Of a stretch of 64,000 nt of DNA, positions 14,967 through 20,034 are shown one piece after another. The translations under genes were made by a program, and so were the position numbers. Every line of letters starts with the position of its first letter. Position 1 is the first letter of the stretch. Under the pieces are notes generated by a model. It was not told the DNA's origin, did no database searches, and saw nothing but the letters and a program-made list of their open reading frames with translations. Source of the DNA: Pelagibacteraceae bacterium AG-414-M23 (GTDB taxonomy: Bacteria; Pseudomonadota; Alphaproteobacteria; Pelagibacterales; Pelagibacteraceae); NCBI GenBank assembly GCA_003214525.1, contig QCLN01000001.1, positions 1 to 64,000 on the forward strand, given 5' to 3'.

Positions 14967-16191
14967 AGCAATAGATCTAAGTTTAAATAGAATTAAAAAA
15001 CTCTGTGATAAATTACAAAATCCTGAAAAAAATCTTAAAGTAATTTCTGTAGTTGGGACTAATGGTAAAAATAGCACCATACAAGCAATGAGATCAATTT
15101 TAAGAGAAGCTAAAATTCAAACTAATATTTACACAAGTCCTCATATTCAAAATATTAATGAAAGGTTTATTTATAACAATAATGAAATAAGTGATGAAGA
15201 ATTATCAAAATTATTGTTAGAAACAGAAGAAATAAATAATGGAGAACAAATAACATATTTTGAAATTTTGACTGCAGCATTTTTAAAAAAAGCAAGTGAA
15301 AATAAAAACAATATAAATATTTTAGAAGCTGGTTTATTTCATAGATTTGATGCTACAAATATATTTGATAAAAATTTAGCCTCAGTTGTAACAGCAATTG
15401 GCTTAGATCATACCGATTGGTTGCCCAAGGACGAAGGAACAATAGATAAAATTATCTATGAGAAAACCTCATCATTATTAAATTCAAAAATAATAGTATC
15501 CAATCAGGAAAATAACGAAATCTTATCAAAAATTAAAAAATCATTAATTAATAATAATTCTAAAAAGATATATTTTAATGATCTTTATTCATATTCATTT
15601 GCAGAAAATAATTTCTTTTATTATGAGGATGAAAAAGGAGGTTTAAAACTTCCAATTCCTAATTTATTAGGAAATTTTCAATTAGCAAATGTTGCAGCAG
15701 CAATTGCTACGCTAAGAAATATTGATGAAATAGATGTTAATGAGAGTCATATAAAAGAAGGGATAAAAAAAATAAAAAATATTGGTAGGTTGCAGGAAAT
15801 AAAATCTGGAAATCTAAAGAAACTAATAAATAATAATAAGTTAATTATAGATGGTTCTCATAATGCTCTGGGAGGCAAAGTTCTTTCTGAATATTTAGAA
15901 AGTATTGAAAGTAAAAAACACCTAATTGTGGGAATGATGTCTAATAAAAACCACCAAGAATTTTTAAATAATTTTATAAATAAAATATCATCTTTGACTA
16001 CCGTAGATATTCCAAATCAACCAAACTCAATAAATGGTCAGGATCTAAAAAATAAAATAAAAGGATTTAAAAATATTAATTACAAAAATTCTATAAAAGA
16101 AGCTTTAAATTCATTGGATTTAAAAGAAAACGATATAGCTATAATTACAGGTTCCCTTTATTTAGCTGGAGAGGTTTTAAATCTTAACTAA
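14917..16191 (+). CDS. folC: Bifunctional folylpolyglutamate synthase/dihydrofolate synthase
   Basis: VVGTNGKNSTIQAMRSIL, YTSPHI, EAGLFHRFDATNIF, IDGSHN. Confidence 0.9.
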   Translation: MNNIQKIISRLQRLHPKAIDLSLNRIKKLCDKLQNPEKNLKVISVVGTNGKNSTIQAMRSILREAKIQTNIYTSPHIQNINERFIYNNNEISDEELSKLLLETEEINNGEQITYFEILTAAFLKKASENKNNINILEAGLFHRFDATNIFDKNLASVVTAIGLDHTDWLPKDEGTIDKIIYEKTSSLLNSKIIVSNQENNEILSKIKKSLINNNSKKIYFNDLYSYSFAENNFFYYEDEKGGLKLPIPNLLGNFQLANVAAAIATLRNIDEIDVNESHIKEGIKKIKNIGRLQEIKSGNLKKLINNNKLIIDGSHNALGGKVLSEYLESIESKKHLIVGMMSNKNHQEFLNNFINKISSLTTVDIPNQPNSINGQDLKNKIKGFKNINYKNSIKEALNSLDLKENDIAIITGSLYLAGEVLNLN

Positions 16192-16557
16192 ATATTCTGT
16201 TCAATCCAAGACTTTAAATCTGATTTAGTAGTCGCTCCAACTTTAGTAGCTTTTAGTTCGCCATCTTTAAATAATAACATTGTTGGAATTCCTCTTACAC
16301 CATATTTAGTTGGAGTATTAGGTTCATTATCAATGTTATGTTTTGCAATAGTCACTTGAGCTGACATTTCATCTGAAAGTTCCTCGAGGATCGGTCCGAT
16401 CATCTTACAGGGTCCTCAGGTTTTTGTATCGATAGTCCCCTTGGAAAAACCAAGGGGACTATCGACACCATTCAGCCCAAAAATCAACTATGACTGGTTT
16501 TCCAGCTTTAATGACCTCTGTTTCAAAATTATCATCTGTTACACTTACTGTAGCCAT
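16188..16557 (-). pseudogene. trxA: Thioredoxin interrupted by a 49-nt hairpin insert in the WCGPC active-site codons
   Basis: Minus strand from ATG 16557: [31 protein letters not shown], then a 49-nt insert (16416-16464) with in-frame TAG, then GPCKMIGPILEELSDEMSAQ...SWIEQNI*. Removing exactly 49 nt restores WCGPC and the full frame. Confidence 0.92.
16416..16464 (-). other. 49-nt hairpin insert: perfect 16-bp inverted repeat (16429-16444 / 16450-16465) with 5-nt loop
   Basis: tcgatagtccccttgg-aaaaa-ccaaggggactatcga. Much more GC-rich than the surrounding sequence. Confidence 0.92.
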
Positions 16558-18753: not shown

Positions 18754-20034
18754 TTATTCAAGTAAATTATCTTCGTCTATGCCTTCTAAAAAATCAGGTA
18801 GGTTTGCTTTCATAATAATTTTTGGCAAAATATTATTCATTATAGTTTTTTTATCTTCATAATTTTTCTTTCTTTGTATTATTTGATTGCTAAAACTTCT
18901 TTCATCTTTTTCAATTTGATTAAATTCAGATTTAAGATTTTTAAATGCTTTTCTATACTCTAATTTAAATTCATTGCTACTTAAAAAATCTGCTAATGGC
19001 TTTAAACTTCCGCCTCCGCTACTTTTTTCTGATTTATGAAAAAATTCTTGTAAAATTATTTTTCTTCTTAGAGAAACTGTAAGTTCTAAAAGTAAATAAT
19101 CTTCTCCACAAATAATAATTCTTCCTCCTTCTCTTTCTTGCCACAAACCATTAGATTTTTTTGGCATTGATTTGGTAAAAATAATGCCTTGGGTAGCATC
19201 AATGGATGACATATCTTTGAGTAACTTATCAACCCATTGTTCATCAAATTTTAAAACTTCTTTTCTTTCATAGAGAATTTTTCCTGTTTGATTATCTTGT
19301 TTGTCTATTACTGTTTGAATTAAATCACCACCTCTCTTTCCTTTTTTTACAGGTTCTATTTTATCATAAGGGAATTTATCTTTTAAAAAATCTTCTAATA
19401 ATTCTTCTTGGGCTTCACCCTTTTTTTCAACTGCAGTTTGGCTCGCAATATCAAAGGCTATTTTTTGTTTTTCCTTGACCCTTTTCATGTCTAGCGCATG
19501 TTCTTTTTCTTTAGTTTGTAATTTTTTTTCATAATCTTGTTTTATTTTATTTTTTTCTTTATCAGCTTTTACTCTTTCTGCTTGTGCTTCTGCTAAAGCT
19601 TCTTTTTTTGCATCTTTTTTAAGTTTTTCTTTTTCAGCTTCTAATGCTTGTTTTTTTAATTTTATTTCCTTATCAGCCTTTGCTTTTTCTGCTTGTGCTT
19701 CTGCTAAAGCTTCTTTTTTTGCATCTTTTTTAAGTTTTTCTTTTTCAGCTTCTAATGCTTGTTTTTTTAATTTTATTTCCTTATCAGCCTTTGCTTTTTC
19801 TGCTTGTGCTTCTGCTAAAGCTTCTTTTTTTGCATCTTTTTTAAGTTTTTCTTTTTCAGCTTCTAATGCTTGTTTTTTTAATTTTATTTCCTTATCAGCC
19901 TTTGCTTTTTCTGCTTGTGCTTCTGCTAAAGCTTCTTTTTTTGCTTTTTCTTTTAAGTTTTTAATCTCATGTTCATGAGCATCTTCTAAAGAAAAAACAT
20001 TTTTACATCTTGGACACTTAACTTTTTGACTCAT
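18754..20034 (-). CDS. DUF2130-like protein with N-terminal Cys-pair motif, repeat coiled coil and restriction-endonuclease-like C-domain
   Basis: KCPRCKNVF start; coiled coil of tandem 37-aa repeats; GEAQEELLEDFLKDKFPYDKIEPVKKGKRGGDLIQTV...ILYERKEVLKFDEQWVDKL. Confidence 0.75.
   Translation of the reverse strand: MSQKVKCPRCKNVFSLEDAHEHEIKNLKEKAKKEALAEAQAEKAKADKEIKLKKQALEAEKEKLKKDAKKEALAEAQAEKAKADKEIKLKKQALEAEKEKLKKDAKKEALAEAQAEKAKADKEIKLKKQALEAEKEKLKKDAKKEALAEAQAERVKADKEKNKIKQDYEKKLQTKEKEHALDMKRVKEKQKIAFDIASQTAVEKKGEAQEELLEDFLKDKFPYDKIEPVKKGKRGGDLIQTVIDKQDNQTGKILYERKEVLKFDEQWVDKLLKDMSSIDATQGIIFTKSMPKKSNGLWQEREGGRIIICGEDYLLLELTVSLRRKIILQEFFHKSEKSSGGGSLKPLADFLSSNEFKLEYRKAFKNLKSEFNQIEKDERSFSNQIIQRKKNYEDKKTIMNNILPKIIMKANLPDFLEGIDEDNLLE
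19581..19940 (-). repeat. Direct tandem repeat, 111-bp period, about 3+ copies, in frame within the DUF2130-like gene
   Basis: cttgtgcttctgctaaagcttc recurs at 19581, 19692, 19803 and 19914. Encodes KKEALAEAQAEKAKADKEIKLKKQALEAEKEKLKKDA repeats. Confidence 0.92.

Follow-up and report, generated by a model that had tools for sequence, protein, structure and literature searches.

To our knowledge, efficient long-range bypassing by ribosomes has essentially two documented cases, one phage gene and yeast mitochondria. The mitochondrial bypassing (byp) elements are hairpins and are presumed to be mobile. Short hairpin inserts with a patchy distribution are also known from a conserved bacterial gene, as the intervening sequences (IVS) of 23S rRNA. 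In the phage case, T4 gene 60, processivity is constant for gaps of up to 56 nt (PMC11194080), and the 5' stem-loop is believed to complete its pairing in the wake of the ribosome, pulling the mRNA (PMC5009743). The byp elements of Magnusiomyces capitatus comprise 81 inserts in 12 of 15 mitochondrial genes and are said to be independent of mRNA context (PMC5009743). Our literature search, which covered few subscription journals, found no report pairing bypassing with Pelagibacter and nothing relevant on thioredoxin and bypassing or on SAR11 hairpins.

The insert in trxA

The window (the whole 64-kb stretch of DNA that was analysed) carries a thioredoxin gene, trxA, that is split within its active-site motif, at WC/GPC, by a 49-nt hairpin insert (16464..16416, minus strand: TGG TGT / CGATAGTCCCCTTGGTTTTTCCAAGGGGACTATCGATACAAAAACCTGA / GGA CCC TGT; Table 1). 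Once the 49 nt are removed, a complete thioredoxin of 106 aa remains, in a register that is unique, and each half separately matches the Pfam profile PF00085. The reading frame enters the insert as CGA TAG, i.e., the second insert codon is a stop. The insert folds much better than its dinucleotide shuffles (z = -7.95, with 0 of 200 shuffles as good) and is the sole strong GC-rich hairpin of the window.

Our analysis agrees with the original prediction, which had described an insert whose removal restores the protein, an in-frame TAG one codon past the first active-site Cys, and GC-richness. It had also described a perfect 16-bp stem; 15 bp are perfect inside the insert, around a 5-nt loop, and the stem reaches 19 bp with one G-U pair once the preceding coding GTGT is counted (arms 16426-16444 and 16450-16468). 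When the window's own genome was searched for the insert core or a second copy of the element, no other occurrence was found. Elsewhere in the window, a coiled-coil-like ORF of 426 aa (18754-20034, minus strand) contains three near-identical repeats of ~36 residues each (KKEALAEAQAEKAKADKEIKLKKQALEAEKEKLKKDA).

Table 1. Observed and proposed features of the interrupted trxA gene in the window
Feature	Position	Strand	Evidence
trxA first half, 31 codons, from the start at 16557 to the first active-site Cys	16465..16557	-	Sequence; PF00085 positions 2-30
5' stem-loop in coding sequence, its 3' end 10 nt from the take-off codon	16478..16520	-	Consensus fold, ten carriers; synonymous-recoding z -1.7 in the window
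Proposed take-off codon UGU, first active-site Cys	16465..16467	-	Last sense codon before the insert; in the stem base
49-nt insert (coding gap)	16416..16464	-	Sequence; nine further genomes carry homologous inserts
Take-off stem-loop, 19 bp, 5-nt loop, includes the UGU codon	16426..16468	-	Six compensatory pairs, 98.7% of cells paired
In-frame UAG, second gap codon, after rare CGA	16459..16461	-	Sequence; codon usage
Proposed landing triplet UGA, matching UGU at 2/3 positions	16416..16418	-	Fixed by the protein frame; match statistics
trxA second half, 75 codons, GPCKMIGP...EQNI	16191..16415	-	PF00085 positions 31-102; Ka/Ks near 0 versus relatives
trxA stop codon	16188-16190	-	Sequence

A family of inserts in Pelagibacteraceae

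A BLAST search of 399 genomes of the genus with the insert and its flanks gave three further carriers. Scanning a single genome of each GTDB species with a pattern gave nine named carriers, all of them Pelagibacteraceae (AH-326-I05, AG-893-J08, AG-404-B04, AG-390-N18, AG-899-G03, AG-447-L04, AG-464-D09, AG-912-P01, and AG-435-J18); its remaining matches were chance occurrences in unrelated sequence. In these nine genomes and the window, an insert of 48, 49, 51, or 52 nt interrupts WC/GPC at exactly the same codon boundary (site 1), and this kinship suggests that the window, too, belongs to SAR11. A covariance model of the stem revealed hairpins at further trxA sites, namely in G480, from another genus of the family (TGC GGT / TAATTGGCCCC...AATTAGC / CCT TGT, at WCG/PC), in G644 (TTT GGG / CGCTAGCCCCCC...AATAGA / GTA AGG, at G/VRG), in G243 (CCT TGT / TGATAGGCCC...AAAAGC / AAA CAA, at WCGPC/K), and, as a second insert, in AG-912-P01 (GGG / CGCTGG...AAAATGGA / ATT, at VRG/IP). 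Altogether, the search of SAR11 genomes that the original prediction had proposed for the palindrome yielded 14 inserts of 46-52 nt at five sites in 13 genomes, all of them in trxA and spread over two trxA types that differ strongly (G564 and G671 were taken as AG-404-B04 and AG-390-N18, each counted once).

In 13 of the 14 inserts, a stop is the first or second codon of the gap: it lies directly 3' of the take-off codon in three and is the second codon, after CGN, in ten. Accordingly, the first gap codon is CGA (nine inserts), CGC (two), or a stop (three). The one insert with no early stop, the second insert of AG-912-P01, also has no 5' stem-loop.

Viral contigs held no exact match of 21 nt and only chance matches to a 24-nt pattern, and the six covariance-model matches in Alphaproteobacteria beyond the order look like terminators or unrelated hairpins. 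A screen of ~1.2 Mb (AG-893-J08, AG-912-P01, AG-435-J18, and the window) for GC-rich hairpins interrupting ORFs recovered all four trxA cases and no clear interruption of another gene; the remaining candidates, assessed only by eye, were weaker. A hairpin just before the ATG of a LysE-like ORF (L201 1501-1563, G309:C14:5895-5957; GATAGTCCTT...AAGGACTATCTACACTAAAAATG) resembles the trxA element of AG-912-P01, its tail (TCTTCACTAAAAAT) included, and may be a copy of the element outside trxA, in a leader region.

The genomes of the genus have one of two very different TrxA types, with ~65-85% or 30-40% identity to the TrxA of the window, and hairpin inserts occur in both (L153 and L154). In L154, the sequence 3' of the insert-bearing second-type gene resembles that 3' of the window trxA. 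A tree of the 3' half mixes carriers with non-carriers, and its well-supported branches require three or more gains or losses. Neither of the close relatives G137 and G301 has the insert. The mobility of the hairpin that the original prediction had suggested is thus partly supported, by the patchy distribution and the five insertion sites. A symmetric co-conversion tract was considered and rejected, since carriers are alike upstream but often not downstream.

Homing elements favour highly conserved stretches, and the active-site and cis-Pro loops are, we presume, the most conserved stretches of the trxA product; T7-like phages use host thioredoxin. That trxA is targeted for its conserved loops, or for the use that phages make of thioredoxin, are ideas only. 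A function of the insert that goes beyond its being tolerated, be it regulation, phage avoidance, or that of a selfish element, is conjectural.

Selection, mRNA structure, and the candidate explanations

Each of the ten site-1 carriers gives a perfect thioredoxin sequence when its junction sides are joined. Where two carriers have the same type of element, the part 3' of the early stop differs almost exclusively by synonymous changes, and the downstream Ka/Ks is 0.00-0.06 between carriers of one clade. For this part, the comparison of the window with AH-326-I05 gives a Ks of 0.63 and a Ka of 0, and that of AG-390-N18 with AG-435-J18 a Ks of 0.49 and a Ka of 0.006. AG-893-J08 and AG-899-G03, which have the same derived AACC/GGTT stem and form a supported clade in the 3'-half tree, differ by a Ks of 1.05 and a Ka of 0.029. 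Together the two halves encode a complete thioredoxin, and purifying selection acts on both. The original prediction had also proposed a check for a second trxA. Among the PF00085 matches of the ten site-1 carriers, there is no second standard TrxA, including in AG-893-J08 at 97% completeness, a result that is strong only collectively because most carriers are incomplete. Their other PF00085 matches are weaker thioredoxin-fold proteins that are present in non-carriers too.

Two mRNA structures accompany the insert. In its stem, 98.7% of the alignment cells pair, 6 of 19 pairs show compensatory change, and sliding the partner by 1-3 columns lowers pairing below 50%. The second structure, a 5' stem-loop formed by the coding sequence CAGAAGTCATTAAAGCTGGNAAACCAGTCATAGTTGACTTTTG, folds in ten of ten site-1 carriers (consensus fold) and shows no double compensatory change. 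Compared with 1000 synonymous recodings, its stability has a z of -1.6 to -4.6 in the ten carriers, and the same region is near zero in most of 14 non-carriers. The exceptions are G035 (z -2.2) and, more weakly, G016 and G301, all of which may be former carriers. The trxA of G035 (L006) keeps the carrier-type stem-loop with no insert, having perhaps lost the insert precisely or being perhaps the donor of the upstream tract. The insert of the other genus follows an unrelated upstream stem-loop (z -3.85); there, as in the site-1 carriers, 10 nt separate the stem from the last codon to be read. In both structures, the standard cells that are not Watson-Crick pairs (12 and 35) are all G-U and none is A-C, which indicates that selection acts on the sense RNA and not on a DNA cruciform. 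A further stem-loop, 3' of the landing site, was hinted at by the fold of the window; it was dropped because the downstream 48 nt are not more stable than their synonymous recodings.

Bypassing in gene 60 depends on the nascent peptide within the exit tunnel. The peptide encoded upstream in SAR11 (18 residues) is similar among carriers, which may reflect the stem-loop or ancestry. Identical codons amount to 0.73 upstream versus 0.48 downstream among carriers and to 0.62 versus 0.58 among non-carriers. Such sharing would follow from a joint action of the element and the upstream stem-loop; co-inheritance could account for part of it.

Altogether, the conserved inserts, the two mRNA-level structures, selection on both halves, and the lack of a second standard trxA in site-1 carriers favour expression of trxA by programmed translational bypassing that works like that of T4 gene 60, to which we assign a probability of about two-thirds from comparative sequence evidence. 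The ribosome would translate 31 codons and stall with peptidyl-tRNA-Cys on UGU, before the rare CGA codon and UAG, where a strong stem has its base. Its anticodon would then release UGU, forward movement would be favoured by the take-off hairpin and by the 5' stem-loop as this forms right behind the ribosome, and the peptidyl-tRNA would re-pair loosely, through two of three bases, ~46 nt downstream. Decoding would resume at GGA and give a thioredoxin with an intact WCGPC. We infer the jump itself, the role of each structure, and the loose landing rule. The gap lengths fall inside the range of constant processivity in gene 60. As a side observation, AG-893-J08 (G142) has a tmRNA gene (L169 19489-19799, tag ANESYALAA), whose product would tag ribosomes stalled on trxA if there were no bypassing.

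The original prediction had doubted bypassing because it found no exactly matched take-off and landing codons. The mismatch is real (UGU versus UGA in the window), and bypassing is now the best-supported reading despite it. With the third base scored by wobble class, 9 of 11 distinct inserts have a landing triplet, as fixed by the frame, that agrees with the take-off codon in at least two of its three bases, a level never reached in 20000 draws of random triplets from the same tails. The match is full in one of the 11 (synonymous GGG/GGA) and limited to one position in two carriers. It supports re-pairing but does not prove it, since it could also arise from a short target duplication or from an invariant motif at the 3' boundary; the landing triplet has a middle G in 10 of 11 distinct inserts. 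CGN codons are among the rarest in the genes of the window (0.2-1.2 per 1000). Since tRNA-Arg(UCG), which reads CGA, is present in one carrier, CGA would be slow at most, and CGN may simply be part of the element's consensus. Two alternative assignments were discarded: landing on the second active-site Cys codon would be an exact match but would skip GPC, whose codons evolve only synonymously, and take-off from Arg at CGA conflicts with the stop that AG-912-P01 has at that position. Counting against bypassing are the non-identical codons, the failure to find either a 3' stem-loop or a consistent Shine-Dalgarno-like sequence before the landing site, the second insert of AG-912-P01, and the tRNA-Arg(UCG) of a carrier.

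An intact protein could also arise at the RNA level, if the hairpin were cut from the mRNA as a tiny intron of no known class and the ends were ligated by a novel splicing activity, a possibility that the original prediction had raised. Excision would accommodate the free gap lengths and a stem selected as RNA, and the middle-G bias at the 3' boundary could be a cleavage motif. We regard it as unlikely, however, because RtcB was found in 0 of 14 SAR11 genomes versus 9 of 14 controls, Rfam intron families gave only chance matches below threshold, and a ribosome accounts for the early stop or rare codon, and for the stem-loop placed 10 nt upstream in the coding sequence, better than a splicing enzyme does. 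Inserts of 46-52 nt are, moreover, too small for group I or II intron cores. A hammerhead-like CUGANGA at the 3' end of the insert was set aside, inspection revealing no GAAA or cleavage site.

If site-specific insertions instead truncated trxA, the halves would be conserved only through the youth of the insertions, and the loss might even be favoured through the dependence of phages on thioredoxin. The patchy distribution with its insert-free relatives would fit, as would the failure to find inserts in other genes across ~1.2 Mb. Such inactivation, which the original prediction had considered as a recent event, becomes quite improbable given ten-genome recurrence and selection on both halves: AG-893-J08 and AG-899-G03 share a derived stem at large synonymous divergence, the compensatory changes in the stem, like the stem-loop upstream, imply that selection has acted for long, and no site-1 carrier has a second standard TrxA.

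A recombinase that excises or inserts the palindrome, leaving some cells with an intact gene, would account for the palindrome itself, the five insertion sites, and the empty sites of relatives. We consider this DNA-level switch very improbable, as the structure selection is strand-specific, the coding stem-loop would have no role in it, and a non-systematic look at neighbouring genes noticed no linked recombinase. There is hardly any room for a split thioredoxin, with the second fragment made separately by re-initiation: E. coli thioredoxin fragments are able to reassemble and the second half in the window has an ATG at codon 5, but no in-frame start lies close to where decoding would resume in AG-404-B04, AG-390-N18, AG-912-P01, or AG-435-J18, and the GPC codons before the ATG change only synonymously. 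Finally, palindromes are a known hazard in whole-genome amplification, and the nine named carriers look like amplified single-cell assemblies, presumably so given their isolate names, but a sequencing, amplification, or assembly artefact, which the original prediction had taken seriously, is practically refuted by recurrence at one boundary in ten genomes, similar hairpins at four further trxA sites, stems that differ by compensatory pairs, clade-specific variants, occurrence in two genera, and the coupled synonymous signal upstream.

A broader proposal is that of mobile bypass elements in a free-living bacterium, with hairpin gaps that enter different SAR11 trxA sites and carry or select a coding 5' stem-loop, ribosomes that land with two-of-three pairing, and expression of the one thioredoxin dependent on hopping. 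We advance it tentatively, at slightly under even odds.

Comparison with described systems

The SAR11 inserts share with the IVS of 23S rRNA their short hairpin form, a conserved host gene, and a patchy distribution. RNase III, however, cuts IVS out with no ligation, and removal of that type would therefore not give a continuous protein.

T4 gene 60 with its 50-nt gap (PMC11194080, PMC5009743) resembles the SAR11 inserts in several features. A gap of ~50 nt separates two parts of one conserved protein, with an early stop codon and an intact downstream ORF; the take-off stem-loop includes the take-off codon, UGU being paired in the predicted stem base; and a 5' stem-loop lies behind the ribosome, at the mRNA exit, in another genus as well. 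In SAR11, by contrast, the take-off and landing codons are not identical, the stop mostly comes as the second gap codon, following CGA, the gap is largely taken up by the stem, with no 3' stem-loop found, and the gene is a cellular housekeeping gene with several insertion sites.

Like the SAR11 inserts, the mitochondrial byp elements of M. capitatus are short inserts in coding regions that are read over at translation, with imperfect take-off and landing matches in several cases, for which two-of-three pairing was proposed, and with an unused codon in the A site (PMC5009743). The SAR11 inserts differ in being bacterial, in their restriction to one gene, and in their conserved upstream mRNA structure. 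A proposed bypass in a bacterial chromosomal gene also has a precedent in the adhesin gene of Prevotella loescheii, with a reported hop of 29 nt (PMC5009743). That is a single, shorter case with no follow-up, reportedly difficult to reproduce in E. coli, whereas the SAR11 inserts can be compared as a family, in a housekeeping gene on the chromosome of a bacterial group that ranks among the most abundant in the ocean. The family offers natural variants of the 5' stem-loop, take-off stem, A-site codon, landing triplet, and tail length; it opens to test the true requirements for landing and the ways in which bypass gaps originate and spread, and seemingly broken SAR11 trxA genes may be functional.
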